From the IMG/VR virus record IMGVR_UViG_3300047678_000811, positions 1 to 45,039 of that record: a stretch of 45,039 nucleotides of DNA, one strand, 5' to 3'. Source of the stretch: a virus. The position numbers and the translations under genes are program-made. The notes under the pieces were generated by a model, which saw nothing but the letters and a program-made list of their open reading frames with translations, ran no database searches and was not told the DNA's origin. Of this stretch, positions 5,873 to 25,320 are shown one piece after another. Position 1 is the stretch's first letter; each line of letters begins with the position of its first letter.

Positions 5873-5884
5873 CGCAACGCACCG
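5873..5884 (-). promoter_or_regulatory. Late-module repeat motif, copy 1 (before tail fibre)
   Basis: Read leftward this is CGGTGCGTTGCG, in the 44-bp gap between the large ejection protein gene and the tail fibre start (29 bp to the ATG). A GGGAGG...CCTCCC inverted repeat lies between motif and start. It is one of five exact 12-bp copies plus one 11-bp match, all in the late region and all in the same orientation. A phage-specific promoter or activator site is inferred. Confidence 0.6.
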
Positions 5885-5887
5885 CCC

Positions 5888-8404
5888 CTATTGGCCGACC
5901 GCGTATTGCGACGGCGGAAACATGAAAGTCTGATCGTTGTCCCGCTTCACCCGCTGCTCCATGCGGCGCAGATAGCCGGGGTTCGCCATTTCCTGCAAAT
6001 TATACAAGACCAGATAGTCGAGGGCGATGCGCGTGTAGGGCAGATTCAGGAATGGCGTGTTGCTGACGCCAAGCCGGATGCCGTCCGCGGTGGGGTCTTC
6101 GCCGCTGCGGATTTTGCCCCAAAGCTGGATGATGTCGGCAGCGGTGCCGAAAGCCGGACCCGCCGCCGTCTCCAGCGGGCCGCCACCGAAGCGGTTCACC
6201 TCTCCGAACAGATAGTCGCCATAGATGCCAAGGCCCCCGCCCTGAAGCATCGCCGCGCGCCATGTGCTGGCCCAATTGTCCCCGAACGGATCGCGCGGGG
6301 ATCGGCCCTTGAGGACTTCCTTGGTCTGGAGCGCAATCATGCCCATGACGGTCGTGGCGGCGATGGTGTGCGCCAAGCCGGTCAGGTCGCCCTTGCCCTT
6401 GAGCAATCCCTGCACGACACCCTCCCCACCCAGATCGCGCCCGATGACCTTGGTGGCGAAGGCGACGGGGAACGCCTTGAACTGCATCAGGAAGCGCAGG
6501 CTTTCGCCCATCCATGTCCCGCGCGTGGTGCCTTGGTGCAGGATGGCGTTCTCGCGCGCGCCGGGCGTGACCACGGCGATATCCGTCCGATCGGTGTAGA
6601 AGGCCTGCAAGGCGGTCGAGAGTTCGTCCCGGAGCGATTGCGCCTGCCGGCCGGTCTTGGCCCCCAGCGCCGCAAACGCGGTGTCAGGAAGGGCGCGGAT
6701 GGCGTCCGGGGTCAGGTAGGCCTTGCCGTCCAGCGACCGCTGCGGGGCCTTGCGGATGACCTCCCAGCGGGCTTCGTCAATGCCATAGAGCGACAGGGCT
6801 TCCCGAAAGCGCGGATCGACCTTGCCCCACGCCCGCGCCGTCTCGCCGGCCGCCCGGGCGGACATCATGCGCGCCGCGCCGGTCTTCATGGCGTCGGTCC
6901 AGAAGGTCAGCAGGTTGGCCTTGAAGAACAGGCGTTGCAGATTGGACGCCACGCCCGGCAGATCGTCCACCGCGCCGAAGCGGGACATGACCGAGCCGAG
7001 CGCCCCGTCCAGCCCGACGCCGATATCCGCCGCCAGCACCCGCGCCTCGCGCGATGCCCGGCCTTCAAGGAAATTTGCCAGCAGGCCGGTATAGGCCGCG
7101 CCAAGGTTCTGCCCCTGGAACCGCAATTCGCTCGCCGCCGTGGCCACGTCCGACACGCTGGAAATGACCGAGCCGCCCAGCTTGGCCATGCTCTGCACGG
7201 CCCGGATGCCGCTGGCGACCTGGGCGATGGACGGGTCATCGGCAATCTTGGCCGTGCCGTCGATCTCCGCGAACTGGTTCTCCAGCCCGGCGCCGCGCAA
7301 CTGGCTGGCCCATTCGGGATGCTCTGACCGGTTGGAATAGGCCAGCGCCGCCCGCACGTCATCGAACATGGCGCGGGGATTGGTGCCCCACGTCTCCATC
7401 AAGCCGATGTCGCGCGCCGACCGTTCCAGCCCGCCGAATATCCCCTCGATGAGCGACCGCGTGCCGAACCGCTCGTTGTAGGCCAAGAACGCATCCGCAT
7501 CCTTGAAGTGCAGAATCCGCTCCTGGCTGACGCGTTTCGCCAGATTACCCGGGCCTTTGAAGGCAAGATCATCCGTTGCACCTTGGGATTTGAGATGGAC
7601 GCCGGAGGCGAGCGCGTCATAGGCACCGCCCAGAAACGCCTTGGGATCGCTGCTGCCGAAGGTCTTGTCCGCGTCCAGCAGGGGGCGAATGAACGCCTGC
7701 CATTCGGCCCCGCCCGCCTTGCGGATTTTCAGCATGTCGTGGCTTTGCCGCATGATGTAGCCCGGCAGGCGGCGGACGAATGACCCAGCGCGGTTCGACC
7801 GCAGACGGGCCACCTCCTGCCATTTGTTGACGATTTCCGCGATGCGCTTGGCTTCTGGCGAAACATCAGCCGTTGCCTTGCCATCCTCACCGATGGACCA
7901 CAGGGCGCGGGCGATGTCCCGATCCAGCACCCCGGCGTCGCGGCCGAACAGCCCCAAGCGGCGGGAGAAGAACTCCAGCAGGCCGTCCCGCTCCAGATCA
8001 CCGATCAGCCCGCCGACGAACTCCGCGGCAAGCGCCTTTTGCCGGGCATCGACCGACAGGCGCGACCCGGCGAATTTCTTGTTGGTCCCGACATTGATGG
8101 CCGCGATGGCGTCCGGCGCCGATACCCCCTTGGCGATGGCCATGTCCGCGAATTCATGCAGGCGCTTCCTGACCACAATATTGATGGCCTTGTTCCGGGC
8201 TTCCATCTTGGCGGCCATGTTGGCATCAGCCCGGAAATCCTCCGCAGCGGCGTCCAGCGCCTCTTTGTCGGACAGCAGCTTGTCGCGCGCCCGCTTACCC
8301 CGCGCCCGACGCTCCACATCGGCGGCGATATCCTCGATATCCTGAGCGGTCAGATCGTCTCCGGCCACCTTCCGGATTTCGTCAATGCAGTCCTTGATCG
8401 CCAT
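5888..8404 (-). CDS. Large internal virion / DNA-ejection protein (T7 gp16-like position)
   Basis: The 838-residue protein is mainly helical, with Ala/Arg-rich N-terminal coiled-coil character (about residues 20-90). Its C-terminal part has hydrophobic stretches (GLAHTIAATTVMGMIALQT, about 650-670) and ends near FPPSQYAVGQ. Length, order after two other internal proteins and position before the tail fibre match the gp16-type ejection protein of T7-like phages, which enters the cell envelope during DNA entry. No transglycosylase motif was recognised; the peptidase activity sits in a neighbouring gene instead. Confidence 0.72.
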   Translation of the reverse strand: MAIKDCIDEIRKVAGDDLTAQDIEDIAADVERRARGKRARDKLLSDKEALDAAAEDFRADANMAAKMEARNKAINIVVRKRLHEFADMAIAKGVSAPDAIAAINVGTNKKFAGSRLSVDARQKALAAEFVGGLIGDLERDGLLEFFSRRLGLFGRDAGVLDRDIARALWSIGEDGKATADVSPEAKRIAEIVNKWQEVARLRSNRAGSFVRRLPGYIMRQSHDMLKIRKAGGAEWQAFIRPLLDADKTFGSSDPKAFLGGAYDALASGVHLKSQGATDDLAFKGPGNLAKRVSQERILHFKDADAFLAYNERFGTRSLIEGIFGGLERSARDIGLMETWGTNPRAMFDDVRAALAYSNRSEHPEWASQLRGAGLENQFAEIDGTAKIADDPSIAQVASGIRAVQSMAKLGGSVISSVSDVATAASELRFQGQNLGAAYTGLLANFLEGRASREARVLAADIGVGLDGALGSVMSRFGAVDDLPGVASNLQRLFFKANLLTFWTDAMKTGAARMMSARAAGETARAWGKVDPRFREALSLYGIDEARWEVIRKAPQRSLDGKAYLTPDAIRALPDTAFAALGAKTGRQAQSLRDELSTALQAFYTDRTDIAVVTPGARENAILHQGTTRGTWMGESLRFLMQFKAFPVAFATKVIGRDLGGEGVVQGLLKGKGDLTGLAHTIAATTVMGMIALQTKEVLKGRSPRDPFGDNWASTWRAAMLQGGGLGIYGDYLFGEVNRFGGGPLETAAGPAFGTAADIIQLWGKIRSGEDPTADGIRLGVSNTPFLNLPYTRIALDYLVLYNLQEMANPGYLRRMEQRVKRDNDQTFMFPPSQYAVGQ

Positions 8405-8413
8405 GCCGATCTC

Positions 8414-10093
8414 CTACGGATGCAGCAGCAGACAGGCAGCGGCGGCCCGTGCCGCCCGCCCGCGCTTCGCCGCCTCCGCGATACCCTCTTTCCCGGAACG
8501 GGCCTGTGCGGCTTCCTCAGGAGTCAGGGCGCCCTGCTTCTCCATCGCGTCGATGGTAGCGCTGGCCTCCTGCAATTCGATGTCTAGATCATCCCCCTGC
8601 GCTTCCTTCACATAGCGGTCGGCGGCGGTGGAGGCTTCCTGCGGCGGGACGGCGGTGCTGCGCTCTACATTCCGGCCATAGGCGACGGATGCGGTGCGGG
8701 CTTGGTCGAGGGCTGCCGCGCTGGTCTGGTCGGCGGCGCGCGTCAGGGCCAGGCTGGCCTCGCGCTGGGCGGCCAGCATCGCAGCCGGTTCCTGCATCCG
8801 GTCGGGATAAAGACCACGGAAGCGGCGCGATGCGGCCTCGGCGGCGGCGGTGATCTGCGGCGGGGTCAGGGCGGCTTGCACATCCGCCTCGGTGCGGCGG
8901 CGGCGCAGGCCGGACAATTCTTCCGCCACGCGGGCTTTCTGCGCTTCGGCGGCGCGGCGGTCGATCAGCGGCTTGGCCTGCTCCCGCAGCTTTTCCGGCG
9001 TCGTGTCGGTCAGCAATTCGTCCCGGCGGGTGGAAAGCTGGCGCTGTACCTCCGGGGCAAGGTCCGGCTGGCGCAATTGGCTTTCGACCGCATCAAGGCG
9101 GGCCAGCAAATCCTCGGCCTTGGGATCGCCGGGCGGCAGCGCCTTGATCTGGGCGTCCAGCGCGTCCACCTCGGCCATGAGGCGGGCTTCGTCCGACGCC
9201 AGCCGGAGGCCCTGCACGGTCGGCAGTTCATCGAACCGGCGATAAAGGGGATCGGTCAGGACAATATGGTCCACCTGCACCGGGCGGCCCTCGGCCATGT
9301 TCGCCAGCGCGCCGCGCAGGGTGGCGTCCCGCGTCTCCGGGGCCATCCGGCCGATGAAATCGGACACCGCGCCGAACCCGACGTGCAGCCCGCCGCCCAG
9401 CACCGTCCCCAGCGCGACATTGATGAGGCTGTCGCCCATCGTGTAATCGTCGCCCAGATATTGCGCCGCGCCGTAATTGATGGGTTCGATGCCAGCCGCG
9501 CCAACCGCGCCCTCAATCCCGCCCGTGAACGCACGCGCTGCGGTTTTGCCGTATTTCGCGGTCCACAGGGCGGCGCGGGCTTCCGGCACAATCGGGATGA
9601 AGGCCGATGCGACGTTGAGCGGGTCGGTGGCGCTGACCGCAAGCATGGTGGCGAAATTGGCGATGCCATAGGTCAGCCCGCCGGGCGCGCGGTTGAGCGA
9701 TGCCTGCCGGGCGATTTCTTCCTGCTTGCGCCGGACCATGATCGACACCGCGCCCGCGCGGGTGGGGCGGTCGAATGTCAGGCCGAGAGACTGGCCATAT
9801 TGGGCGTTGAGGGTCTTAGGGTCCTGATATTCGTCCGCCTTGCCGAAATCGAAATCCATGTCGATGCGCGACAGGTCTTGCTCGCCCATCTGTTGCGCAA
9901 ACATGGCGCGGCGCTGTTCGGGATTTGACCCGGCCCACGCCAGCCCGAAGGCGTCGATGGTGGCGGCAATCGGGTTATGGACGAAGGTCTGTTCGGCTGT
10001 GGCGGCCAGCGCATCCCGCCAAGGCAGCGTTACGCGGTCCAGCAGCCCGGCGCGGGAAATGTCGTCTTCTGGAATGTCGGTGCCAAAATTCAT
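8414..10093 (-). CDS. Internal virion protein
   Basis: The 559-residue protein starts MNFGTDIPEDDISRAG in an ATGA overlap with the previous gene, which argues against the longer frame. The N-terminal 250 residues are mixed and contain a hydrophobic segment (FATMLAVSATDPLNVASAF). From about residue 300 it is Ala/Arg/Glu-rich and probably coiled coil. It lies between two ejection proteins, matching an inner-core component. No enzymatic motif was seen. Confidence 0.65.
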   Translation of the reverse strand: MNFGTDIPEDDISRAGLLDRVTLPWRDALAATAEQTFVHNPIAATIDAFGLAWAGSNPEQRRAMFAQQMGEQDLSRIDMDFDFGKADEYQDPKTLNAQYGQSLGLTFDRPTRAGAVSIMVRRKQEEIARQASLNRAPGGLTYGIANFATMLAVSATDPLNVASAFIPIVPEARAALWTAKYGKTAARAFTGGIEGAVGAAGIEPINYGAAQYLGDDYTMGDSLINVALGTVLGGGLHVGFGAVSDFIGRMAPETRDATLRGALANMAEGRPVQVDHIVLTDPLYRRFDELPTVQGLRLASDEARLMAEVDALDAQIKALPPGDPKAEDLLARLDAVESQLRQPDLAPEVQRQLSTRRDELLTDTTPEKLREQAKPLIDRRAAEAQKARVAEELSGLRRRRTEADVQAALTPPQITAAAEAASRRFRGLYPDRMQEPAAMLAAQREASLALTRAADQTSAAALDQARTASVAYGRNVERSTAVPPQEASTAADRYVKEAQGDDLDIELQEASATIDAMEKQGALTPEEAAQARSGKEGIAEAAKRGRAARAAAACLLLHP

Positions 10094-12591
10094 TCCGGCA
10101 TCGCGTTCGATTTGGCGATTTGCGCCTCGGTGGCGACGGATGCCCGCGCGCCCGCCTGAGTCAACGCCGACCACGGATAGGAGATGGTCTTGCCGCCCAC
10201 GCCGCGCGCCGGGACGAAGCCGGATTCCTGCGGATAGGCCAGATACAGCCCGCTCTCATCCGGCAGCGTCAGCCAGACACCCTTGCCGCGCAAAACTTTC
10301 CCGGAAAGCTGCTGGCGTGTTTCACGTGAAATGCGCGGGTCGGCAAGCGATTGCTCCGGCATGATCGCCGCATCTGGCAAGGCGCTCAAAAGCTGGCGCG
10401 CGCCGCTTTCAACCGCGTCCGCGTCAATGCCGGTGGGCACGCGGAATGTGCCGGTGAAAGCATAATGCTTGCCCAGAATGTCCTGCACCGCCCGCTCGGC
10501 CGCGTTGCTGACGCCCTCCTGCGTGAGCTGGTAGGCATAAAGCTGCGCCGCCTCGGCCTGCACTGCCGCCGCGCGGGTGTTGCCGGACTGGCCGACCAGC
10601 GTCTTGGTGAAGGGCGCTAGGGCCTGGGCAACCGATTTGTCGATCTCGCTGGCGTCCGGTGTGGCCTTGCGCAGCGTCTCCCGCCCGGTGTTCACCGCGT
10701 TCGCCATGCGCCACGCCACCGCCGGATCGCCCTTCACCTGCGCGAGCGCGATGGCTTCGGACGGCAAACCCTTGCGCTGCAATTCCCCCATGACCTGGGG
10801 GAAGTATTTTCCATACTGCCGTTCCAGCCCGCCGATGATCTGCACCATGTTGTCGGCGCGCTTTTCCGGGTTCGGCGGATTGTTGAACTGCTGGACGATG
10901 CCGCTCACCTGCCCATCGGACAGAACGCGGGGGGCCAAGATGCCCATGTCCCGCTGCGCCATGATCGAATTGCGGACGCCATTCTGGAAGATGGTCGGGT
11001 TATCGGACCGCAGATATTCCGCGATGTCGGGCCGAGCAAAATTGACATAGCCCGCCGGGTCGCTGGCGAGCGCCTTGTTCCGCGCGTCCCGTGCCTGCAA
11101 GAACGCCTGATAGGTGCGCTGACGGTCGGCAAAGCCCTGCCCGTTCCCGCCCTTCTGGCCCCATGCCCAATGGATGTGGTCGCCTTCATCAATCAGTTCG
11201 GAAATCGGCAGTCCCTTGGCGGTGAGCGCGGCGCGCACATCCGCGACCGTCTTGCCCTTCGGCAGCACGAAATCCATCGCCGCCGCGTCAAGGTGCTGGG
11301 AGTTCGCAACCCCGCCAACCTCGGCATTTTTCTCCGCCGTGCGCGCGCCGCTGGTGATGGTGCTGCCGGGGAACAGGTCAGTGATGGCGGCTTGGGCGGA
11401 CGCCTCGCTGATCGGCGGCGCGGTGCCTGCCGGGTTCAGTTCGGCATCCATCCGCGCCAACGCTTCCGGCGTGGCGTTCTTCACCTGCTGCCGCATCGAA
11501 TAGACATCGGCGGCGCTGTTGAGCTTGCTGATGATGTCTGCAGCGCGGGCGGGATTGTCGGCATAGGCGCGGGTGATCTCCGGGACGGACACCACGTCAT
11601 CATACCGGCCTGTCGCCTCAGCCTTCGCCACGGCATCGTCAAGGCGCTGATCGACGCCCTGCCGCATCTCGACCATGGCGTCGCGGCGCAGCGCGTCCCA
11701 TTCCCCGATCTCGCGCTTGCCTCGGCTGACATAGGATTCGCGCTGCTGCGGCGACAGGTTCAGGTCTTTCGACCACATCGCCTTTTCGAGGAAGTCCAGC
11801 CCGGCCTGCGTGCCGTTGGCCTTGGCTTCTCGCAGGGCCATGCCTAGCGCCGCCTCGCCATGTGCCTGCGCCACGGTTTCGGCAATGTCGTCGTCAATCG
11901 CCTGCCCGGAAATGCCGAACACGGGGTTGCGCAATTGGTCTTGCTGGTTGCGGAGCTTGGCCACCGCCGCGGCAAAATCAGGCGTTTCCGTGCCGCCGTC
12001 GTGAGACAGCGCGAAGATATCGTTCTTGGTGCTGGTGATGCCGGAGTTGATCGCGCCCAACTGCTTGCGCACGTCGCGCTGCTGCTTCTGGCCGGTCAGG
12101 TTCGCGGTGAATTGCGTCACGTCGGCAAGGCCGGTGTTCAGCAGATCGCCACGCAGCGCCGAAGGGACGCCAGCCCCGCCCGCCTGCTTCTTCACATAGT
12201 CGGTCGCCAGAAGCCGGAATCCTTCCGGATCGTCCAGCTTGTCGATCGCCAGCTTTTGCAGATAGGCCCGGCGGTCGCCCTCGCTTTGCGCTGCGAACGA
12301 TGCCTGCGCCGCATGGTTATAGGCCACGTCCAGTTCGTTCAGCGGCGTGCGCATTTCGACGGTCAGGTCGCCGGTCGCCGGGTCGCGCGTGACGGCCTGT
12401 GAACCCTTGGCCGCCATTTCCGGCTTGAGCATTTCCGTGCCGATCTGCTCAAGCTGCGCTCCGGTATCAGCCAGGCTGGACCACGCGCCGATGCCGCGCG
12501 AATATTCCGCCGCCGGGGACGGTCCGCGCACCTGATCCACAAGGACCGGCTGGCTGTTTGCACCAATGTCTATCGGGCGAGGCGTGGCCAT
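10090..12591 (-). CDS. Internal virion protein with embedded M15-type peptidase domain
   Basis: The 833-residue protein is helical at both ends and has a compact enzymatic core in the middle. SGARTAEKN (about 414-422), SQHLDAAAMD with His433 and Asp440, and EGDHIHW with His474 match the zinc-ligand pattern of the M15 (D-Ala-D-Ala carboxypeptidase / L-Ala-D-Glu endopeptidase) superfamily. The domain could cut peptidoglycan peptide bridges during DNA ejection, replacing the transglycosylase of T7 gp16. It sits between the core protein gene and another internal protein gene. Confidence 0.8.
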   Translation of the reverse strand: MATPRPIDIGANSQPVLVDQVRGPSPAAEYSRGIGAWSSLADTGAQLEQIGTEMLKPEMAAKGSQAVTRDPATGDLTVEMRTPLNELDVAYNHAAQASFAAQSEGDRRAYLQKLAIDKLDDPEGFRLLATDYVKKQAGGAGVPSALRGDLLNTGLADVTQFTANLTGQKQQRDVRKQLGAINSGITSTKNDIFALSHDGGTETPDFAAAVAKLRNQQDQLRNPVFGISGQAIDDDIAETVAQAHGEAALGMALREAKANGTQAGLDFLEKAMWSKDLNLSPQQRESYVSRGKREIGEWDALRRDAMVEMRQGVDQRLDDAVAKAEATGRYDDVVSVPEITRAYADNPARAADIISKLNSAADVYSMRQQVKNATPEALARMDAELNPAGTAPPISEASAQAAITDLFPGSTITSGARTAEKNAEVGGVANSQHLDAAAMDFVLPKGKTVADVRAALTAKGLPISELIDEGDHIHWAWGQKGGNGQGFADRQRTYQAFLQARDARNKALASDPAGYVNFARPDIAEYLRSDNPTIFQNGVRNSIMAQRDMGILAPRVLSDGQVSGIVQQFNNPPNPEKRADNMVQIIGGLERQYGKYFPQVMGELQRKGLPSEAIALAQVKGDPAVAWRMANAVNTGRETLRKATPDASEIDKSVAQALAPFTKTLVGQSGNTRAAAVQAEAAQLYAYQLTQEGVSNAAERAVQDILGKHYAFTGTFRVPTGIDADAVESGARQLLSALPDAAIMPEQSLADPRISRETRQQLSGKVLRGKGVWLTLPDESGLYLAYPQESGFVPARGVGGKTISYPWSALTQAGARASVATEAQIAKSNAMPE

Positions 12592-13049: not shown

Positions 13050-15271
13050 GTCACAATCACCTCTTGCGCGACGGAAATCACCGTCAGGGGGGTCGGAATC
13101 GGGCGGCCGATCTGCACGCACGGCTCGTACTCATAGCCGGACAAGGCATAACGCTTGACCTCGCTGCGCAGCGGCGGGGCTTCCTCCAGATCATCGCCCT
13201 GGTCATAGGCGGGGCGCGTGTTGACCTGCGTCCGGCCCTCGATGCCCAGCGTGTAGACCCCGCTGTCCTGCACGCGGATCGCAGCGTGCGTCAGGCGGCG
13301 GCGCGCAAACATCGCGCGCTGGTCGCCATCGGCCTCCGGCGGCCACAGCACCGCGTCATATTGGAAATGCAGGCCCGCCTCGAAATCCCCGTCCGCCGCG
13401 TCGATGCCGGGGATGCTGCCATCCGCCGAAACCGTGAACTCGCCCAGATATTCCGTTCCTCGGATCACCTGCACGGTCTGCCCCGCCAGATGCGGCATGG
13501 CCCCGATATCGGTCAGGATAGGATTGCCGTCATCGTCGGTGATGGCGTCGCCATTATCGTCGGTCAGCGGGAGATAAGAGCCGGAGCTTGAGAACAGCGT
13601 CGAGGCGTCCATCTGCGCATCGCCATCCAGCCGCTCCAGAAAATACTCGTCCGCCCCGCCAATGGTCCGGCGGCACACCGCATAGACGATGCCGACAATG
13701 GTCACGAACGCCAGATAGGCCCCATCCGGCGTATCCCAAGGCGTGATTCCCAGCCGCGGCGGGTTCGTGTCGAAGAACATGCAGGCCAGCGTCCCGTCCG
13801 AATTCAGGGCGAACAGGTAGCGTTCCGGCGCCTGCGCGTTGCCGCTGGTCTGGGCAAGGCTGACCGGCGTGCGGATAAGGTGCGCGGCATGGCGCGACAG
13901 GTCCGTCACCCGATATGGCGTGGTCAGATCGCCGGTCGCCAGCATCCCCATGACCCGGTTGCCGCCCGCTTCGATGAACGCGACGCCCTCCTCCATGATG
14001 ACCGGGAACGCGCTCGATGCGCCGGTCTTGTCGATCATAATCGGCTGGAAGGTGCTGGCCGCCAGCGGGGTATTGGTGTCTTCCGGGACATAATAGACGC
14101 GCCGGTCGGTCAGGATGATGAGGCTGGCCGCCGACACGCAATAGCGCACCCGCTGCCCACCTTCGGCCAGCAGGAAGAATATCGCGTCGGACACCTCGCC
14201 CTTGCCGGTGTTGAAACTGTCCCGCGCGCCGGGGGATGACAGGAGAATGGCCCCCGGAATATGGGGGAAGTCCGCAAAGCCCAGCCGCCCGCTGCGCTCG
14301 AACACATCGCCGGGATAGCCGCGCACGGGCGACAGTGCCGCCTCATCCCAGACCGTGCTTGCCGCCGGGCTGCTCGCGCCTGCGACCCCGGACGCCTTGC
14401 TGCGGGCGTAAGGCCCGACGACATATTCCGCATCGGGCGTGGTGACGAAGGTGTTGCTGTTCGACATCAGCACGGTCAGCACATTGCCCGCGATGTTCGT
14501 GATAGTCCCAGCGGCCTGGCTGTCCTGCCCCTCAACATCCTCCCCGACGCGAAAGCCCGATCCGTCCGCAACCGTCACGTCGATGGTCGGCGGCAGCGTG
14601 TCGATCACCGTGCCGGTGCCGTTCTGGCCGTCCACAACCGTCGCGATCTGGATTTCCTTGGCGGACGCGATGGTCGCGCCATAGCGGAAGCGCACCCCGA
14701 CATGCCCGGCTTCCAGCACGTCATCGGAAAAGACCAGATTGATCGTGCCCGAAGTCGCGGACGGCGTGAGGGTGATGCCCTTCTCCGCAAAGCGGTAATA
14801 GGGCTGTTGCGATGATCCGCCAGCCCCTGCGGCGAAGGTTACAAGCCCAAGCGACCACACCCCGCCAGAATAGGTCAGCAGGCGCGGCCAATAGCCTTGC
14901 AGCGTGAAATAGACCTCATTCTCGCGGGCGTGCCATGTGATCGACCCGACCTCATCCGCCGTCCATGGCCCGCCGGACACCGATTGCAGCAGCGAACCGT
15001 CCTGCGAATAGATGTCGATCCCGCCCGCCCGCACGGCGCCGATCACCGAACCAATCTCCGAAACGATGATCTCGATGGCGATGCTGTTCCCGGCTAGCGA
15101 CGCCATTCGCCGGGAGCCATTGCGCTGAGAAAAGCCATAGGAATTCAGGATGCGGCAGTTGCGGCCGCGCTTCAGCGCACGCGTCTTGGCCTCGGCGTTG
15201 CTGGCGGCGTAATCCTCCGACAGTTCCCCGAACCCGAAATCGCTTTGCCGGACGACCTGGCGACGCGCCAT
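13046..15271 (-). CDS. Tail tubular protein B / nozzle (T7 gp12-like)
   Basis: The 741-residue protein begins MARRQVVRQSDFGFGEL and soon shows the typical nozzle-family pattern of a short N-terminal region followed by beta-rich sequence. SGRLGFADFPHIPGAILLSSPG, about residues 330-350, is characteristic, as are LTDRRVYYV and TPWDTPDGAYLAFVT. It forms the tail tube below tubular protein A. Its start overlaps the stop of the tubular protein A gene. Confidence 0.85.
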   Translation of the reverse strand: MARRQVVRQSDFGFGELSEDYAASNAEAKTRALKRGRNCRILNSYGFSQRNGSRRMASLAGNSIAIEIIVSEIGSVIGAVRAGGIDIYSQDGSLLQSVSGGPWTADEVGSITWHARENEVYFTLQGYWPRLLTYSGGVWSLGLVTFAAGAGGSSQQPYYRFAEKGITLTPSATSGTINLVFSDDVLEAGHVGVRFRYGATIASAKEIQIATVVDGQNGTGTVIDTLPPTIDVTVADGSGFRVGEDVEGQDSQAAGTITNIAGNVLTVLMSNSNTFVTTPDAEYVVGPYARSKASGVAGASSPAASTVWDEAALSPVRGYPGDVFERSGRLGFADFPHIPGAILLSSPGARDSFNTGKGEVSDAIFFLLAEGGQRVRYCVSAASLIILTDRRVYYVPEDTNTPLAASTFQPIMIDKTGASSAFPVIMEEGVAFIEAGGNRVMGMLATGDLTTPYRVTDLSRHAAHLIRTPVSLAQTSGNAQAPERYLFALNSDGTLACMFFDTNPPRLGITPWDTPDGAYLAFVTIVGIVYAVCRRTIGGADEYFLERLDGDAQMDASTLFSSSGSYLPLTDDNGDAITDDDGNPILTDIGAMPHLAGQTVQVIRGTEYLGEFTVSADGSIPGIDAADGDFEAGLHFQYDAVLWPPEADGDQRAMFARRRLTHAAIRVQDSGVYTLGIEGRTQVNTRPAYDQGDDLEEAPPLRSEVKRYALSGYEYEPCVQIGRPIPTPLTVISVAQEVIVT

Positions 15272-15864
15272 CAGTACCTCCGGCGGCGGCGGCCCATGCG
15301 GGCATCGACCAAGGTGCCATCACCAAGGGGCCGGTTGCGCTGCTGCCCCGCCTCGGTGTGCTTGGCGATTTTGGACTTCATGTCGGTGCGCTGCTCGGTC
15401 GCCTCGGCTTCCGCATGGCGTTCGCTGACGCCCATGAACAGGGCCTTGAGCCGCCCCCGGACGATGCTCTTGAACCGCGCTGGCCATAGGGATTCTGCCG
15501 GCCAATACAGATGCTTGACGGTGATATCGGTATTGTAGGCCGTCCGGACGACATTGCCCTCGATCTGGTAGAATTCGCCGTCCAAATCCTGGCCCTTGTA
15601 GAGCACCGACATGACCTTCAGGACGCCCGCCGGAAGCTGCCAGCGATACTTGAGCGGAAGGTCCGATGTGGCGGTCAGGAGGCTGGGATTGCCGATCTTG
15701 GCGGCGAATTTCCAGCCGCCGTTCTCCAGTTCCTCCTCGACAAAGGCGTCATAATTCTCGATGGCGGCATTGGCCATCACCGTGCCCGGCGTCAGCGTGG
15801 TCAACGGGTCTTCACCCGCAGCCGTGAGCGCCTGATTGACGATGGAGAGCTTGGTATCGGCCAT
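15271..15864 (-). CDS. Tail tubular protein A / gatekeeper (T7 gp11-like)
   Basis: The 197-residue protein begins ADTKLSIVNQALTAAGEDPL after the initial Met, the signature start of gp11-type adaptor proteins, and continues with YDAFVEEELENGGWKFA. Residues about 115-155 have the LYWPAESLWPARF region. It connects the portal to the nozzle. The C-terminal 25 residues are Arg-rich (MGRRRRRY). A copy of the leftward repeat motif lies 30 bp before the ATG. Confidence 0.87.
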   Translation of the reverse strand: MADTKLSIVNQALTAAGEDPLTTLTPGTVMANAAIENYDAFVEEELENGGWKFAAKIGNPSLLTATSDLPLKYRWQLPAGVLKVMSVLYKGQDLDGEFYQIEGNVVRTAYNTDITVKHLYWPAESLWPARFKSIVRGRLKALFMGVSERHAEAEATEQRTDMKSKIAKHTEAGQQRNRPLGDGTLVDARMGRRRRRY

Positions 15865-15893
15865 ATCGGCAGAATGGCCCCGGAGGGGTCAGC

Positions 15894-15905
15894 CGCAACG
15901 CACCG
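15894..15905 (-). promoter_or_regulatory. Late-module repeat motif, copy 2 (before tail tubular protein A)
   Basis: An exact CGGTGCGTTGCG read leftward directly abuts the stop of the SGNH hydrolase gene (15906) and lies 30 bp before the tubular protein A start. It is followed leftward by ACCCC and a small CCCCTCCGGGG hairpin. Placement between two virion genes fits a promoter for the tail operon. This is inference from recurrence, not from a known consensus. Confidence 0.6.
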
Positions 15906-18647: not shown

Positions 18648-18674
18648 GTCTGTATTCCTTCTTCCTTCGGCCGG

Positions 18675-19616
18675 TTAGGCCACGATGGCCGCGTCCGCGA
18701 TGTAGCGAAGGCGGGCCAGGTGAAATTCGCTCGGAACCATCAGGCCCACGTTCCAGGTCACGCGGGTGCGCTTGGCCGGGGTGGATTCCAGTTCGCCCAG
18801 ATCGCGCACCGAAATGCCGGGGTTGTTGATGCCGTGAACCGCATCGGCGCCGAAGTTGACCGCATAAATGGAAGTCGCGGTCGCGCCGCCCGATGCCGCC
18901 GCCTCGGTGAAGGGCAGGACTTTGGTGTTCTTGTTCTGCGGATAGCCGACCAGGATCGGGATGCCCTGGAAGCGCGTGACGCGGCGACCCAGTTCGCTGT
19001 CCATGTCGTCCGTCACCATGTTGTTGGTGAGGGTCGGGCTGCGCGCGGCGGCCTGGAAGCGGCGGCGCAGCGCGCGGCTCATGATGAGGTGGGTTGCACC
19101 GTCAACGGTATCGACCAATTCGTCCATCTTGGTCAGCTTCAGGGGTTCACCGCCAGCGGTCGAGCCCGCGTCGATGAGCTGGCCGCCGGTGGCGCGCTTC
19201 TGGAAGCCGTCGAACTGGCGCGGATCGGTGGAATTGTCGCCCTTCAGGATGGCGTCGGTGATGCCGACGCCCAGCGCCTTGGACTTCATGCCGACATGCG
19301 TGCTGCGGACGCCTTCGCCCTGCGTGTCGAGGATGAACATATCCACGTCCAGGTCGCCACCGGCGGCAAACAGCGCCTCGGTCTGCGGGGTCAGCGAACC
19401 ATTGTTGGCGGTGAAGCCTTCGTTCACGCCGCGGAACGCGGTGGTCGGCAGATCGCCTTCCTGCGTGAACTTGACCGCGCCGCCCATGATGCCTTCGAAG
19501 GTCATGGCGGCCAGGATGTCCGACCGCTCGGCGTACATCTGGATGACGGCGGCCTTGACGGTATCGCCTTGCTCGGCGGCGGCCTTCGCGGCTTCGATGA
19601 GGGTCATTGCGGGCAT
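18675..19616 (-). CDS. Major capsid protein
   Basis: The 313-residue protein starts MPAMTLIEAAKAAAEQGD (an in-frame MTL start at 19607 is also possible). It has the layout of HK97-fold capsids of BPP-1/T7-related podoviruses: an N-terminal helical arm, then a beta-rich shell domain with TLTNNMVTDDMDSELG, FQGIPILVGYPQNKN and VTWNVGLMVPSEFHLARLRYI. It directly follows the scaffold gene. Confidence in capsid identity comes from length, position and these segments. Confidence 0.83.
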   Translation of the reverse strand: MPAMTLIEAAKAAAEQGDTVKAAVIQMYAERSDILAAMTFEGIMGGAVKFTQEGDLPTTAFRGVNEGFTANNGSLTPQTEALFAAGGDLDVDMFILDTQGEGVRSTHVGMKSKALGVGITDAILKGDNSTDPRQFDGFQKRATGGQLIDAGSTAGGEPLKLTKMDELVDTVDGATHLIMSRALRRRFQAAARSPTLTNNMVTDDMDSELGRRVTRFQGIPILVGYPQNKNTKVLPFTEAAASGGATATSIYAVNFGADAVHGINNPGISVRDLGELESTPAKRTRVTWNVGLMVPSEFHLARLRYIADAAIVA

Positions 19617-19631
19617 GGCTTCGTTTCCTCG

Positions 19632-20354
19632 CTAGGCGGCGGCGGCTGCGTTGAAGGTGTCCATGGCCTTGTGACCGGGCGTTCCGATCTTGTCGGCCAA
19701 GTTCTTGTTCGGATTTTCTTTGGTGCTGCCCGGCTGGCCGCGCACAACGGTGCCGGACGCCTTGGCGATGATCTTTTCGACGGCTTCGACGCCGACTTTG
19801 AGGTCCAGAAGCGTCGCGTAAACGCTCGCTTCTTCCTTCGACAGGTTCGCGTCGATCCAGGTCTTTGCGGCGGTGCGCCGGGCTTCGGCGTTGGCACCCA
19901 GCGCCGCGGTCTGCTCGGCGGCGAACTTCGCCTGGTTCTCGGTTTCGGCCTTGATCTCCGCCGCCTTCACCTTGGCGTAGGTCGTGACCAGCCCGCCGAG
20001 TTCATCCTGCGTCAGCTTGTTGGTGACGGCGTATTCGCGCACCGCCTGCACCAGCGGGTCATCGGCGCGGGCTTCGAACTTCGTGCCTTCCGGCAACTGA
20101 AAATCGGCAGGCAGTTCGAACTTGTAATCTTCGGGCTTGGCCGGAATCTTGGCCGCGCGCTCATCGGCGGCGGTCTTCAGCGGGCGCAGCGTGTCCAGTT
20201 CGGTGAGCGACGCGGCGAGGTCGATCTTGGGGGCGTTCTTCTCGCCATCCCAAATCGTTTCGGGCAGCCAGTCAGGCCGCGCCACGACGGCGGCGGGATC
20301 GGGCTGATTTCCGCCCGCCGGGTCCTGTTGCTGCTGCTGTGCCGGGTCCGACAT
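19632..20354 (-). CDS. Scaffold protein
   Basis: The 240-residue acidic protein starts MSDPAQQQQQDPAGGN. The Gln/Pro-rich N-terminus is followed by helical, Lys/Glu/Ala-rich sequence (LVTTYAKVKAAEIKAETENQAKF, about 120-142). Composition and position just upstream of the capsid gene are typical of phage scaffolds. The frame is open to 20441, but the Met at 20354 is the natural start. It overlaps the end of the Bbp19-like gene by 83 bp. Confidence 0.75.
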   Translation of the reverse strand: MSDPAQQQQQDPAGGNQPDPAAVVARPDWLPETIWDGEKNAPKIDLAASLTELDTLRPLKTAADERAAKIPAKPEDYKFELPADFQLPEGTKFEARADDPLVQAVREYAVTNKLTQDELGGLVTTYAKVKAAEIKAETENQAKFAAEQTAALGANAEARRTAAKTWIDANLSKEEASVYATLLDLKVGVEAVEKIIAKASGTVVRGQPGSTKENPNKNLADKIGTPGHKAMDTFNAAAAA

Positions 20355-20631
20355 TCTGACTTGCGCTCTCTGTGTGGCGCTGAATTCGCGCCTCAATGAT
20401 CGCGACAAATCTCCGCTGCGCCTCATCCTCCCGCAACGCACCGTCCGAAGCGTTCGGCGCGGTGCGCTTCCAAGTCGTCAAACGGTGCATATTTGCGAGC
20501 GCCATCTGTCCATCCGGCGTGCTGAAAACGCGCGCAAAACACGCGTCAATCCGTTGCTCCTCGATGCTCAATGGATCGGATGCGGTCAGGTCTTCCCAGC
20601 GGTGACCGCGCTGCGGGCGGAGAGGCGTCAT
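20272..20631 (-). CDS. Bbp19-like phage protein
   Basis: The 119-residue protein contains FARVFSTPDGQMALANM (about 33-49) and REDEAQRRFVAIIEARI (about 67-83), the pattern of the Bbp19 family encoded between portal and scaffold in BPP-1-like phages. The role is unknown. The last 35 residues are Arg/Gly-rich and overlap the scaffold gene start in another frame. Its start overlaps the portal stop as ATGA. A copy of the late repeat motif is embedded in the coding sequence at 20432-20443. Confidence 0.6.
   Translation of the reverse strand: MTPLRPQRGHRWEDLTASDPLSIEEQRIDACFARVFSTPDGQMALANMHRLTTWKRTAPNASDGALREDEAQRRFVAIIEARIQRHTESASQNVGPGTAAATGPGGRKSARSRRRRGAA
20432..20443 (-). promoter_or_regulatory. 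Late-module repeat motif, copy 3 (before scaffold/capsid)
   Basis: An exact CGGTGCGTTGCG read leftward lies inside the Bbp19-like coding sequence, 78 bp before the scaffold start. Inside a gene the motif is constrained by codons (Gly-Ala-Leu-Arg), so this copy could be chance. The position ahead of scaffold and capsid matches where strong late promoters sit in T7-like phages. Confidence 0.5.
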
Positions 20632-22199
20632 TGCTGCGCCCTCATCAGCGGCGCGGCTGTGGCGGCAGCCTGCTGCGCCATCGCCGCTTCCTGCATCCCC
20701 TTGATGGTCGCATTGATCTGTTCCTTGGGATGGAGCGTCACACCGGACGCATCGGAGAGCTTGACCATGTTGTGCGCCGTCTCACCGACATCGACAATCT
20801 GCGGAAGTGTTTCCGGCCCGAACAGGTTGCCCAGGCTGGCCAAGACGCGTTCGCACGCAATCGCCTTTTCCTGATTGGCAGCGCGCTTCAGCGGGTTGAT
20901 CGGACGGACGGGGAATTCCTTGCCGCCAACCTTGATGACTTCCTGCAATTCGCCGCGCTTCACCAGCAGCCAGCGGAACCGCATATAGGCTTCGGAGAGA
21001 AATTCCTGCCACAGCGGCGCGGCGGGCGTGCCAAGGCGGCGCTGCTTTTGCAGGGCTTCGTCCATCCACTGGCCCAGCGTCGGCGGGGTCTTGCCCTTTT
21101 GAACCGGGCCGTCCTGATAAAAATGGCGGCGGATGCGCTGCTCCACCATATCGACCGCATAGAGTGCCGCATCCATGCCGTGCCGCGATTCCAGAACGTC
21201 GATTTTCGAACCCGGCAGGCGCGGGATCGCCACGCCGTTCGGGATGCCGCCCTCCAGATTGATGACCTGATCGTCGTCATAGGCCCAAGACGGGTCCACG
21301 TTGCGCGCCAAGCCCTTCAGCTTCAGATAGGCGGTTTCATCATTCTCGCGGAAATCGGCCAGCGTCTTGAGTGCCGGGCCATTGCCCCATGAGAAATTCG
21401 GGTCCGGGTCCCAGCGCGCGACAAGAATGTTTGCCGAACCGACGCCCAACTGCCGGCTACCCTCACAGGCCTCGTTGTCGATCAGTGTGAACTTCACCCA
21501 TGCGACTTCGGCCTTCACCTTGCGGTCGCGGTAGCAGCCCTGCAAAACATTGAATTTCGTGTCGTATTTCTTGCCCGCGATGGCCGCCTTGACCTTGGGC
21601 GGAAGGTCGATGTCCGGGAACAATTCCTCGATATCGCCCGCCGGGAGATTGCGGTCCCAGCCCCGGAAGTCGATTTCACCGGTGGCGCCGCGCAGGATCA
21701 GTAGTTCCCCGATCGGGATGACCTGGCAGCGGAAAGGCTGACCCGCGCCGGGGTCTTCCACCGCCATGCCAACCGCCGAAATTCCCAAATCCTTGAAGCC
21801 CTGCTTTCCGGCCTCATGAAAATTCGATGCCGTGATCGCCGCGAAGGTCGTGTCGGTGTCGATCTTGGCGGCAGCCTTGGCGTCGGTTTCGAACTCCTGC
21901 GGCACCGTGGCGGCGACTTCGACCCCGGCCCAATTGTTGTGTTCCGGGATGAACGTATCGGCCATGTCGGACGCGAAATCGGTCAGCACCTCCTCACCGA
22001 TCGTGCTGAAATTGTCGCTGGTGCCGCTCGGCCGCGTCGTGCTGCTATCGCCCGGCTTGATGCGCTGCGGCAGGCAAAAGCTGTACGCCTCCTGAAAATC
22101 GGATTCGAACATTTGCTTTTCGGTGCGCGCCTTCGCGGCGCGGCGACCGACTTCCGCCTTGATCGTGTCCAGCAATGTCGGCTTGGGCTTCTCGGCCAT
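20628..22199 (-). CDS. Portal protein (head-to-tail connector, T7/BPP-1 type)
   Basis: The 523-residue protein begins with helical sequence MAEKPKPTLLDTIKAEVGRRA and then EKQMFESDFQEAYSFCLPQR, typical of podovirus head-tail connector proteins. Later segments include EHNNWAGVEVAA, the long stem/crown helices (LGQWMDEALQKQRR) and an Ala/Gln-rich end. It forms the dodecameric ring through which DNA is packaged. The start overlaps the upstream small gene as TGATG. Confidence 0.85.
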   Translation of the reverse strand: MAEKPKPTLLDTIKAEVGRRAAKARTEKQMFESDFQEAYSFCLPQRIKPGDSSTTRPSGTSDNFSTIGEEVLTDFASDMADTFIPEHNNWAGVEVAATVPQEFETDAKAAAKIDTDTTFAAITASNFHEAGKQGFKDLGISAVGMAVEDPGAGQPFRCQVIPIGELLILRGATGEIDFRGWDRNLPAGDIEELFPDIDLPPKVKAAIAGKKYDTKFNVLQGCYRDRKVKAEVAWVKFTLIDNEACEGSRQLGVGSANILVARWDPDPNFSWGNGPALKTLADFRENDETAYLKLKGLARNVDPSWAYDDDQVINLEGGIPNGVAIPRLPGSKIDVLESRHGMDAALYAVDMVEQRIRRHFYQDGPVQKGKTPPTLGQWMDEALQKQRRLGTPAAPLWQEFLSEAYMRFRWLLVKRGELQEVIKVGGKEFPVRPINPLKRAANQEKAIACERVLASLGNLFGPETLPQIVDVGETAHNMVKLSDASGVTLHPKEQINATIKGMQEAAMAQQAAATAAPLMRAQQ

Positions 22200-22411
22200 C
22201 AGATCGACCGGATGAAGCCGGAGGTCAGGGACGATCCGCCGGGATTTCCGCCCACCATCCCGAAACGCTGAAGCCGAACCTGCATCCGGCGGCGCAAATC
22301 ATCCTGGATCGTGCTGGTGAGCGCGTTCTCCGATTGCACCTGCTGGCGCTGACGCGCCGCCTTAACCGCCGGGTCTTCCTCCGGGGCTTTCGGGGTGCTG
22401 AATAGGGACAT
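22199..22411 (-). CDS. Small phage protein upstream of portal
   Basis: The 70-residue protein from MSLFSTPKAPEEDPAVKAAR is charged and helical, ending with GGNPGGSSLTSGFIRSI. Short proteins with this MSLF...P...DPAVKAA start are common just upstream of the portal in podoviruses; the function is unknown. A longer frame reaches 22438, but the second Met fits better. The first 50 bp overlap the end of the upstream gene. Confidence 0.65.
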   Translation of the reverse strand: MSLFSTPKAPEEDPAVKAARQRQQVQSENALTSTIQDDLRRRMQVRLQRFGMVGGNPGGSSLTSGFIRSI

Positions 22412-22841
22412 GGCTCTCCTCGACCAGCGGACGGGCACCGTGCCGCACCATCCAGTCGTGCAATCCCTTGGGGGTCATCGCAACGCACCGCAGCCCCAGC
22501 ACATGCTTGATCGCGGGCACGCACCAGAACCCGAACCGCGGCCACCACGAAGCCTTCAGCGCGCCCGGCGCCGGCCAGTTCAAAACCCCGCCCTGCCGCT
22601 GCGCCGTGGTCAGCAGCCGCCCCGCCAGCGCCCCAGGCAGCACCGTGATCTCGGTTTTGAAGAACAGCACGTCATAGCAAAGCCACCGATCCAGCCCGGG
22701 CAGATATCCCAACAGGAACGCGTGCCGGTAATTCTGCGGGCATATCCAATCCCACGGTGCCCGCCGCACCCGATCCGCAAAGCACACTTGCCACACCACA
22801 GGCATGTCGGGTTGCTCCGGCACATCGGGCACGAAGCGCAT
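22362..22841 (-). CDS. Phage protein with Cys-containing terminal domain, function unknown
   Basis: The 159-residue protein is rich in Trp and aromatic residues. Its C-terminal part, FWCVPAIKHVLGLRCVAMTP followed by LHDWMVRHGA, resembles a recurring phage family encoded next to terminase. The conserved Cys-Val-Pro-x-x-Lys core hints at a papain/transglutaminase-like fold, but no clear His-Asp partner was identified. The start overlaps the terminase stop as TGATG, so translation is probably coupled. Confidence 0.6.
   Translation of the reverse strand: MRFVPDVPEQPDMPVVWQVCFADRVRRAPWDWICPQNYRHAFLLGYLPGLDRWLCYDVLFFKTEITVLPGALAGRLLTTAQRQGGVLNWPAPGALKASWWPRFGFWCVPAIKHVLGLRCVAMTPKGLHDWMVRHGARPLVEESHVPIQHPESPGGRPGG
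22479..22490 (-). promoter_or_regulatory. Late-module repeat motif, copy 4 (before portal block)
   Basis: An exact CGGTGCGTTGCG read leftward lies inside the unknown gene after terminase, 68 bp before the small gene that precedes the portal. As in copies 2 and 6, an ACCCC run follows within a few bases. Coding constraint (Leu-Arg-Cys-Val-Ala) is present, so this copy alone would not be convincing. Confidence 0.5.
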
Positions 22842-24427
22842 CAGGCGCGCGCCGCCTGCCGGTGTGGCCGGTACAGCTTCCGGTTCTGCCCCGGCTTGTA
22901 GCCCGTCACCACGCTGACCGGCCGCTTCGGCTCCGACCCCTTCATGAAGGATTTCCCCTCGCCCGCCCCCAGAAACAGGTATTGCGACGCGTCGGCAATG
23001 TCAGCATGGCCGTTCCGCTTATCCGGCTCGCTATCATAGACCTCGCCCGACACGTTCAGCTTGCGGAACCGATACCCGCCTTCGCACGCCGCGATATAGC
23101 GCGTGCAGGTCGGGGAAACCGTGATCCGGTCGAAATCGAACATCGCCTCCACCGTCTCGGTCCGGTGCTTGATCCCGTTCCCGCCCGGTGCCGGGATCAG
23201 CAAAATCCCATGCTTGCGATAGACAAGCTGCGAGGAATTATCGTCCGTCGCGTTCTTCTGGTCATGCGGATCGCGGTAAAACGAAATCCGCACCTGCTCA
23301 ATCGACAGCCCCGAAGGCGCAATGAGCTTCGCCACCCAGCGCCGCACCAAGGGCGCGAACGCATCCGACCCGATGTCCTTGCCCACCAGTTCACCGATCA
23401 GCCGCCACCGCCCGGCGTGAACCTGCCCGGCAATCGCCGCGGGATTGCGCCCCGTCTGGTCCACCCCGACATACAGGTGCAAATTCGGATCGAACGGTAT
23501 CGGCTGCGGCGCCACATGCCGATCCCGCGCAAAGGTCGGCCACACCGGCTTCCCCGCCACCATCGAACCCAGCTTGTTGCAGAAATTCACCCGTATCCAC
23601 GAACGCGTCTTGCCGCCCATGCGCTGCAAATAATACCCGAACCCGTCCGTCAGATTCCGGATGTTCTCCGCCATCGGGTTCGGCTGATACGAAATCTCCT
23701 TCGTCGTCGCATCCCGCACCTCAAGCAAGGCTCCCGGCTGGACGTAATAGTTCCAATCCTCCGGCCGCTTCAGCCCCGCCTGGTCGTCCTCGCTCAAATC
23801 CTCCGGCATGGGCACCTCGCCCATCATGATCGGCAGCCAGTGCGTGTCCGCAGGCGCGTTCGTGTCCATGATCGCCCCAGACCAGCTATGCCCACCATCC
23901 CGCTTCGACGGATACCGACCCGTCCGCCCGATGATGTCGTCAATGATCCCCTTCAAAACCTCCCGCGCCTCGTTTACCCAGACCCCGGTCAACTCCAGCG
24001 ACAGCAGCTTCTTCCGGTCATTCTCATCGTCCAGCGCGACGAAAATCACCTCCATCTCAACCGTCGTCGCCCGCCCACGCGCATCCGGCTCCCCTGGAAC
24101 CCGGATCGTGTGCGTATACGGCCGCGCCTTCACCATCGGCCCGTACACATCCTCCGGGAACCAATCCAGCCACGTCTTGATCGTCGTATCGCGCAATTCC
24201 GAATACGTGTTCCGGACCACCGCCCACCGCGTCTTGCGCTTTCCCTGCGGGTTCGGCCGCTGCCGACACGCGATGTCGTACAGCTTCGATATGCACGCCA
24301 CCGACTTCCCGCTCGCCCACGGCCCCCGCACAATCGTCACAAACGCATAATCGTCCAGAAACGCCTCCAGCGTCGGACCATCAATCGTCAGTTGAAGCTG
24401 CTGCGGCTGGGGAGCGTCGTCTGCCAT
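22841..24427 (-). CDS. terL: Terminase large subunit
   Basis: The 528-residue packaging motor has an ATPase half with Walker A RGPWASGKS (residues 34-42) and a Walker B-like LELTGVWVNEARE. A nuclease half with LYVGVDQTGRNP (RNase H-like acidic residue) starts after about residue 320. It cuts concatemers and pumps DNA into the prohead. The start is ATG 24427; a TTG one codon earlier is less likely. It is preceded by a repeat-rich 0.2-kb segment. Confidence 0.92.
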   Translation of the reverse strand: MADDAPQPQQLQLTIDGPTLEAFLDDYAFVTIVRGPWASGKSVACISKLYDIACRQRPNPQGKRKTRWAVVRNTYSELRDTTIKTWLDWFPEDVYGPMVKARPYTHTIRVPGEPDARGRATTVEMEVIFVALDDENDRKKLLSLELTGVWVNEAREVLKGIIDDIIGRTGRYPSKRDGGHSWSGAIMDTNAPADTHWLPIMMGEVPMPEDLSEDDQAGLKRPEDWNYYVQPGALLEVRDATTKEISYQPNPMAENIRNLTDGFGYYLQRMGGKTRSWIRVNFCNKLGSMVAGKPVWPTFARDRHVAPQPIPFDPNLHLYVGVDQTGRNPAAIAGQVHAGRWRLIGELVGKDIGSDAFAPLVRRWVAKLIAPSGLSIEQVRISFYRDPHDQKNATDDNSSQLVYRKHGILLIPAPGGNGIKHRTETVEAMFDFDRITVSPTCTRYIAACEGGYRFRKLNVSGEVYDSEPDKRNGHADIADASQYLFLGAGEGKSFMKGSEPKRPVSVVTGYKPGQNRKLYRPHRQAARA

Positions 24428-24651
24428 CAACGCATTTCCGAAACCGAAAAATTTCCGGACAAAATTTCCGAAACGAAAAATCGGGAACGGCTAGAGGGGC
24501 GCACCCCAGTCAGTCGTCGCGATTGCGTTTTTGCCCCCCCGGTGCCACGCTCAGGCCGCACGCGATCCCAGGCGCATCGAGCGCCAGTTGCCTGATAATT
24601 GTTTATTATGGGAAATCGTGTTTCCTGATATATCAATGACTTAGCCCTCAT
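24427..24651 (-). CDS. Doubtful small ORF between terminase subunits
   Basis: The 74-residue ORF starts in an ATGA overlap with the TerS stop and ends in a TGATG overlap with the TerL start, so it would be translationally coupled at both ends. The underlying DNA is AT-rich at one end and carries direct and inverted repeats, and the protein has no recognised features (it ends FFVSEILSGNFSVSEMR). It may be a real linker gene or only a reading frame through a regulatory or packaging site. Confidence 0.3.
   Translation of the reverse strand: MRAKSLIYQETRFPIINNYQATGARCAWDRVRPERGTGGAKTQSRRLTGVRPSSRSRFFVSEILSGNFSVSEMR
24434..24481. repeat. Direct repeat cluster before terL
   Basis: ATTTCCG occurs three times (24434, 24451 and 24464). 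The outer copies extend to near-identical 18-bp blocks, ATTTCCGAAACcGAAAAA and ATTTCCGAAACGAAAAAT, differing by one inserted base. The block sits immediately upstream of terL. Iterated sites in this position can be terminase small-subunit recognition (pac/cos-like) sites; that role is inferred. Confidence 0.5.
24595..24635. repeat. AT-rich inverted repeats at the terS 3' end
   Basis: Three short inverted repeats follow each other: ATAAT/ATTAT (24595-24609), GGAAA/TTTCC (24611-24625) and the palindrome TGATATATCA (24626-24635). The segment is much more AT-rich than the surrounding genome. It may be a protein-binding or regulatory region for terL expression or for packaging initiation. Confidence 0.5.
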
Positions 24652-25211
24652 TTGCGCTTTCGAGCGCCACGATTGGGCTGCTCAACACAAGATGTGGTGG
24701 TCGCTGGTGCCTGCGCCTCCGGGTGTGCAGCAGGCTTGCCTATCGCATTGATTGGCCTTGCGTTTTCGACCTGGTGCGCGGTGGTGTCGATGACATCTCC
24801 GTGCGGTTGCCAGTTGCCGCGGTTGATGGTCAGGCCGGGGATAACGTGTTGATGCACATGCATATTCTCGGTGCGCTGGATAGGCGCAATGCTCTCAAGA
24901 CCGGCGAGCCATGTGTTTGCCTGCAGCTTCACGTGCTCGGATTCAGCCTCATCGGCCAGTTTTGCAGCGCGCGCGATGGTTCGGGACGCCTCGCTCTCAC
25001 GCAACACCTGCATCAGGTGGTTGCGGAAGGACTTACACTCCGGTCGTTCGAGGGCGCGATAAAGCCAATCGTCAGTAATTCCGCAGGCTTTAGCGGCCTC
25101 GGCTCGGCTCCGACCTTCATCGACCATGAGGCGGATTGCGGCGCGTACTGGACCGGATATGCGGGCCTTGCGCGGGCTTGTGGTGGTTATGGCGAGCGCA
25201 GCGGATGACAT
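24648..25211 (-). CDS. terS: Terminase small subunit
   Basis: The 187-residue protein has an N-terminal helix-turn-helix region (RAAIRLMVDEGRSRAEAAKACGITDDWLYRAL, about residues 21-52) followed by a helical oligomerisation segment and a polar tail. TerS proteins bind the packaging site and regulate TerL. The assignment rests on HTH type, size and position upstream of TerL. The start at 25211 leaves a 29-bp leader after the nearest copy of the late repeat motif. Confidence 0.72.
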   Translation of the reverse strand: MSSAALAITTTSPRKARISGPVRAAIRLMVDEGRSRAEAAKACGITDDWLYRALERPECKSFRNHLMQVLRESEASRTIARAAKLADEAESEHVKLQANTWLAGLESIAPIQRTENMHVHQHVIPGLTINRGNWQPHGDVIDTTAHQVENARPINAIGKPAAHPEAQAPATTTSCVEQPNRGARKRK

Positions 25212-25240
25212 GCGGTGAGGATGGGCTGTCGGTCGCTGGT

Positions 25241-25252
25241 GGCAACGCACCG
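25241..25252 (-). promoter_or_regulatory. Late-module repeat motif, copy 5 (before terS)
   Basis: CGGTGCGTTGCC read leftward matches 11 of 12 bases of the motif and lies 29 bp before the terS start in non-coding DNA. Together with copy 6, 68 bp further upstream, it forms a tandem pair at the head of the whole late operon. This copy is free of coding constraint. Confidence 0.6.
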
Positions 25253-25308
25253 CGCTCTATCTGGATACAGTGGGGGATGCGCGCGAGGGTACGCGGTGGC
25301 GGGGTTGT

Positions 25309-25320
25309 CGCAACGCACCG
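25309..25320 (-). promoter_or_regulatory. Late-module repeat motif, copy 6 (head of late operon)
   Basis: An exact CGGTGCGTTGCG followed leftward by ACAACCCCGCC sits in non-coding DNA 97 bp before terS. It is the rightmost copy; none was seen in the early regions or the host flank. Position and orientation suit the principal late promoter or activator site. Confidence 0.62.

Follow-up and report, generated by a model that had tools for sequence, protein, structure and literature searches.

Lambda cII, T4 MotA (at middle promoters) and P2 Ogr are phage activators whose dependent promoters are read by the host RNA polymerase. A T7-type promoter is one uninterrupted site of ~20 bp and needs a phage gene for a single-subunit RNA polymerase. 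The late region described here lies in a 45,039-nt viral sequence (IMG/VR record IMGVR_UViG_3300047678_000811; hereafter, the window). Like the cII, MotA and Ogr systems, it would combine a phage DNA-binding protein (here a candidate), a site in or near the -35 region, the host polymerase and a weak or missing -35 element; unlike them, it has another site, a candidate protein of another family with a HipB/Cro fold, and late virion genes whose ATG follows the -10 box by 5-7 nt. With T7-type (Autographiviridae) late promoters it shares many directional copies ahead of late blocks, but here a short core is followed by a -10-like box at 19-21 nt. The predicted helix-turn-helix (HTH) fold of the candidate regulator is shared with XRE/HipB and restriction-modification controller proteins (PDB 4z5h and 3g5g), although the candidate has an extra basic C-terminal region and only weak Pfam/NCBIfam matches. 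The AR9 late promoter consensus AACA-(6N)-TA/G is ascribed to a phage multisubunit polymerase and goes with long 5' UTRs (PMC5312081); both systems place a late consensus ahead of many late genes, but consensus, polymerase and UTRs reported for AR9 differ from ours. Among the matches listed in a literature search, there was no paper on the motif or regulator described below.

Motif copies along the late gene block

The late block of the window (3570-25211, minus strand) comprises, by PHROGs matches, terS, terL, portal, scaffold, capsid, tail tubular proteins A and B (TubA and TubB), internal virion proteins and tail fibre. Its terS, terL, head-tail adaptor, major head, tail tubular and internal virion proteins match podovirus families, and an 838-aa virion protein is closest to Pseudomonas Ab31-like phages (~40%; phiV10-type ~30%). 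The phage belongs with Ab31, epsilon15 and phiV10 and is not T7-like. In PHROGs, the large minus-strand open reading frames (ORFs) searched matched structural or packaging families or unassigned ones, and none matched an RNA polymerase, in agreement with an initial annotation that had seen no polymerase gene; a 575-aa plus-strand ORF gave ATPase matches. The window also encodes an S24-type repressor, a RecT-like protein and an integrase, and carries a phage-borne tRNA-Arg(ccg) at 35832-35907 (plus strand). A 35-nt inverted repeat, 77% complementary (33060-33094 and 34155-34189), flanks the S24 repressor and a Rap1a-like small gene, and its arms are possible operators. In the flank lie tRNA-Arg(cct) (42284-42360, plus strand), a likely attachment site by neighbouring host synteny, and PPK2; because the same gene order occurs in a Hyphomicrobiales MAG, the host probably belongs in or near this order.

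The 12-mer CGGTGCGTTGCG occurs five times exactly (5873-5884, 15894-15905, 20432-20443, 22479-22490 and 25309-25320) and once as an 11/12 match (25241-25252), all on the minus strand and all where the initial annotation had placed them. Its core, GTGCGTTG, is found six times on this strand, which is that of the late genes, and never on the plus strand of the window, bearing out the reported orientation. The 9-mer GGTGCGTTG was observed 6 times against 0.68 expected, a count reached in 0 of 100 dinucleotide shuffles, and an unbiased scan ranked GTGCGTTGC and GGTGCGTTG top among late-strand 9-mers in the window and again in a related genome, G002. The conserved part of the motif spans only ~9 bp.

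The copies had been described as preceding terS, the portal block, scaffold and capsid, TubA and the tail fibre, which is accurate for some of them. Upstream of terS (24648-25211, minus strand, 187 aa, its start re-set by inference to the ATG at 25211), the distal core (25311-25318) is followed 19 nt on by the -10-like box TACCCT (25286-25291), and the proximal core of the 11/12 copy (25243-25250) by CATCCT (25218-25223), with the ATG six nt further on. The core of the putative TubA promoter (15896-15903) precedes CATTCT (15871-15876) and an ATG at 15864, and that of the putative tail-fibre promoter (5875-5882) precedes CACCCT (5850-5855) and an ATG at 5843; at terS, TubA and fibre alike, the motif stands exactly 31 nt before the ATG. 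The 22479 copy (core 22481-22488), on the other hand, lies within a small gene after terL (ORF 22362-22841), with no -10 box found and no ATG at the usual distance. The 20432 copy (core 20434-20441) does lie ahead of the scaffold gene, but as coding sequence, read on the late strand as GAC GGT GCG TTG CGG GAG; a weak -10-like box, GAGATT (20408-20413), and the scaffold ATG at 20354 follow it, and G002 has a core at the same place. Two features of local arrangement were also recorded: the terS copies of the window are 68 bp apart and G002 holds a tandem AGGTGCGTTAGGTGCGTTG separated by nine bases (42902-42920), and between the fibre motif and its ATG (5850-5874) the leader contains GGGAGG and CCTCCC, two potentially pairing arms.

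Recurrence in other phages and the two-part layout

Two relatives that were found by protein, without recourse to the motif, carry it as well. G002 (IMGVR_UViG_3300036760_000229), found by the 838-aa protein (65% identity), has 7 late-strand cores and 0 on the other strand, and Mwe-JY08 (PP395640; hereafter JY08), a named phage found by terL, has 7 and 1. The terS, scaffold and after-terL sites recur in G002 while the remaining sites are shifted, a pattern that fits regulatory sites. No motif cluster was seen in G001 (39% identical), Hodr, MEP301 or BcepC6B, and the motif is missing from most capsid or decoration relatives. A contig search with the 838-aa protein found no relatives; among 385 alphaproteobacterial genomes 11 encode one, and no motif cluster was seen in the regions examined of ten such genomes (eight of the 11 and two from another search), some being contig fragments. 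The major capsid protein of JY08 (L379 22182-23126) is ~34% identical to large Caulobacter phage capsids, such as that of CcrRogue. Two pattern scans of viral contigs plus whole-contig counts added at least ten motif phages (G494, G495, G530, G531, G532, G534, G538, G541, G543 and G547), picked from the contigs richest in one-strand sites; the other contigs counted have mostly one or two scattered sites.

Across these genomes the element takes the form GTGCGTTG-N19..21-CAYCST, that is, the core and, 19-21 nt downstream, a -10-like box, and its sites are very probably late promoters, as the initial annotation had proposed. In the window, CATCCT, CATTCT or CACCCT starts at offset 20 at the three sites 31 nt from an ATG, which then follows after six bases, and TACCCT starts likewise at offset 20 at the distal terS copy; overall, a consensus box stands at the usual offset in only 4/6 window sites and a near ATG in 3/6. 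In the three genomes not chosen by motif (window, G002 and JY08), [CT]A[CTG][CTG][CGT]T occurs at offset 20-22 in 11 of 20 late-strand sites, against 0.43 expected. All 13 motif phages together have 88 late-strand cores and 7 on the other strand, although strand and ATG counts of the ten added phages are partly selected because the search pattern held the motif plus an ATG. The same box, with its key A and T, is present at offset 20-22 in 50 of the 88 sites (1.9 expected), with 14, 25 and 11 sites at offsets 20, 21 and 22, respectively (0.6 expected each); in the alignment of 66 boxes, the A and T were required. It is present at 31/46 sites with an ATG-ORF at 29-36 nt and also at 19/42 sites lacking one, and is thus independent of the start codon. 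As many as 29 of the 88 sites lie within a late-strand ORF of at least 100 aa.

Where a start codon is near, its distance from the box is narrow: of 37 boxed near starts, 32 have the box 5-7 nt away, whereas a box at this distance precedes only 8/590 other late ORF starts. A Shine-Dalgarno-like sequence precedes 1/46 near starts and 108/364 other late ORFs (Fisher 1e-5, a value that is too small, as are the other P values, since kin sites are counted as independent). Because the ATG usually follows the box by 5-7 nt and Shine-Dalgarno sequences are missing, transcription would begin at or next to the ATG and the late mRNAs would be leaderless; for the three window genes terS, TubA and fibre, we regard leaderless starts as likely.

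The core sits in the -35 place, and its 3' TTGC is a conceivable poor -35 in the window (16-nt spacer), with a longer spacer in other groups. The core-to-box distance is 19 nt in the window, 20-21 nt in most relatives and ~23 nt in marine class I; as it is not constant between phage groups, a plain -35 hexamer is doubtful.

In a wider set of 84 sources, core-to-ATG distances are bimodal (31-36 and 45-57 nt), and ATGs are almost absent 13-28 nt downstream of the core. Here 27 of 120 sites fall at 29-36 nt, where 279 letter permutations predict 5.4; 3 of the 279 permutations (26 to 48 sites each) exceed the real rate, perhaps through homologous coding starts. Low-GC marine terL relatives (79 loci) have 82 forward and 12 reverse cores, often just after terL, with the ATG either 45-57 nt off and a Shine-Dalgarno sequence or 32-35 nt off; some sites of the latter kind show a TATTnT-like box. 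The marine data serve as support only, since some of the copies are coding and codon-biased permutations yield counts as high as 160.

A helix-turn-helix gene that accompanies the motif

Comparison of genes near the late block identified one family common to the first five motif phages. In the window its member is a HipB/Cro-fold HTH protein (27034-27636, minus strand; assigned by profile and predicted structure), encoded 1.7 kb upstream of the first motif; the others lie at 44062-44907 in G002 (C-terminal part), 11123-11641 in JY08, 14555-15238 in G494 and 41833-42492 in G495. A profile built from the five had its top match to this family in 8/8 other motif phages (E values 2e-18, 3e-14, 3e-13, 3e-12, 1e-5, 0.0023, 0.008 and 0.051, those of G543, G532 and G541 being weak taken alone, at 0.0023-0.051), and a reverse profile from the eight recovered all five (7e-22 to 0.002). 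The family was not found in nine control contigs with scattered sites (best E 0.25). All 13 motif phages encode it on the late strand ahead of the late block, and a motif follows 0.6-5.6 kb further on; in five contigs motif copies also precede it. Because the motif-bearing viruses also carry the HTH gene, the two resemble a single transferable switch, and the HTH protein is a reasonable, though less than firm, candidate for the late activator.

In tblastn against 50,697 phage records, the JY08 protein matched JY08 alone and the G495 and window proteins had no match. Marine motif carriers gave weak HTH matches, on the opposite strand. The profile had 13 weak matches in the 385 genomes; these generic XRE matches are uninformative because no motif cluster was seen in the flanks of nine of the genomes. 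One relative (L421 1-489, minus strand, genome G253, E 2.6e-7) lies in a region without a motif cluster and may use another site. An AlphaFold2 model gives a confident HTH over residues 1-80 (pLDDT at least 87 per ten-residue block) and a basic C-terminal helix pair; the predicted HTH is closest to HipB (PDB 4z5h; Z 10.1, 2.1 A over 72) and to controller proteins such as C.Esp1396I (Z 8.8, 2.2 A over 63), comparisons in which model residues beyond ~6-74 were barely tested.

A proposed late transcription model, alternatives and possible exchange between lineages

Our preferred reading, which we hold to be probable as a whole, is of a two-part late promoter used by the host RNA polymerase with a phage XRE/HipB-fold activator on GTGCGTTG. 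It draws on the motif, its strand bias, the -10 box, the spacing, the absence of Shine-Dalgarno sequences and the gene-motif association, and from these promoter activity, start site, sigma factor and the activating role of the HTH protein are inferred. Weighing against it are the window sites with no consensus box or near ATG, the copies within ORFs, the HTH relatives that lack a motif cluster, the opposite-strand matches of the marine carriers, the presence of GapR in four of five motif phages and a spacing that varies between phage groups. The unit GTGCGTTG(C)-N19..21-CAYCST would be the promoter and GTGCGTTG its recognition half. The XRE/HipB-fold protein, encoded just upstream of the late block, is probably made in the early programme; it probably occupies GTGCGTTG, at about -39 to -32, where a -35 element would otherwise lie, and probably brings the host sigma70 holoenzyme to the weak -10 box. 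The terS, TubA and tail-fibre mRNAs would then probably start at the ATG or a few bases from it, with little or no leader.

A core with a separate -10-like box is the layout expected of a host RNA polymerase working with a phage factor. The likeness to T7 late promoters suggested by the initial annotation fails on the features tested; that annotation had recognised neither the box nor the leaderless arrangement, nor had it linked a regulator gene to the motif. Promoters for a T7-type single-subunit phage polymerase would account for repeated strand-specific sites ahead of late blocks, but the box is separate with three allowed spacings, only ~9 bp of the core are conserved and no polymerase was found among the large ORFs searched; we consider them very improbable. 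A role as an operator or as an RNA antitermination or translation element, not part of a promoter, would suit the strand-specific copies that come right after stop codons in several places, as well as those in coding DNA. It is nevertheless improbable, given that the spacing to the -10-like box is fixed even at sites without a near ATG and that ATGs are nearly missing 13-28 nt past the core in the 84 sources.

The least remote of the alternatives, though still unlikely, is that a host sigma factor alone reads the element, GTGCGTTG being an unusual -35 and CAYCST the -10, with no phage activator. The box spacing is suitable for a bacterial holoenzyme, the key -10 A and T are kept (as the alignment required) and the activator gene family is still a candidate. 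Against it, GTGCGTTGN{19,21}CAYCST has 68 matches among 385 alphaproteobacterial genomes, spread over 57 of them with no more than two in any one and no clustering, and it has none in G003, the nearest host relative. Such sparse matches argue against a host sigma factor that makes general use of core plus box and against a host regulon or promoter class. The same core moreover occurs in AT-rich marine phages, there with differently spaced TATTnT-like boxes, and the HTH gene tracks the motif.

Portals split the 13 phages into two hardly related groups (the window, G002, JY08, G495, G530, G534, G543 and G547; and G494, G531, G532, G538 and G541), so the pair of motif and HTH gene does not just reflect common descent of the virion; on sequence it is present in two lineages, through exchange or deep ancestry. 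The next portal relative of the second group in the compared set, BcepC6B, has neither a late-strand motif cluster nor a good HTH match. We are evenly divided on a broader joint claim: that the HTH gene and GTGCGTTG-N19..21-CAYCST form a mobile module, exchanged by structurally different phages of Alphaproteobacteria and by marine phages, that drives leaderless virion transcripts, that the family is new as a late activator, and that abundant marine phages have a host-adapted -10 box.

A sequence-defined promoter with a candidate activator makes it testable how late genes are switched on in many temperate and marine podoviruses without an RNA polymerase of their own. It also offers a way of mapping late operons in uncultured phages, and suggests that phage lineages with different structural genes can trade a late switch. 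If real, virion mRNAs that are both regulated and leaderless would lend themselves well to the study of leaderless translation in Alphaproteobacteria. Two other regulators were considered as the common factor in the five motif phages searched: neither is in all of them, as GcrA was above cut-off in G000 and G495 only, and GapR, found in the other 4/5, was missing from G495. The window encodes a GapR/DUF2312-like protein (31088-31558, minus strand; also in G002, JY08 and G494) and a GcrA-like protein whose DNA-binding part is C-terminal (30427-30861, minus strand; also in G495), and such phage relatives of cell-cycle regulators, the GcrA-like ones included, merit attention.
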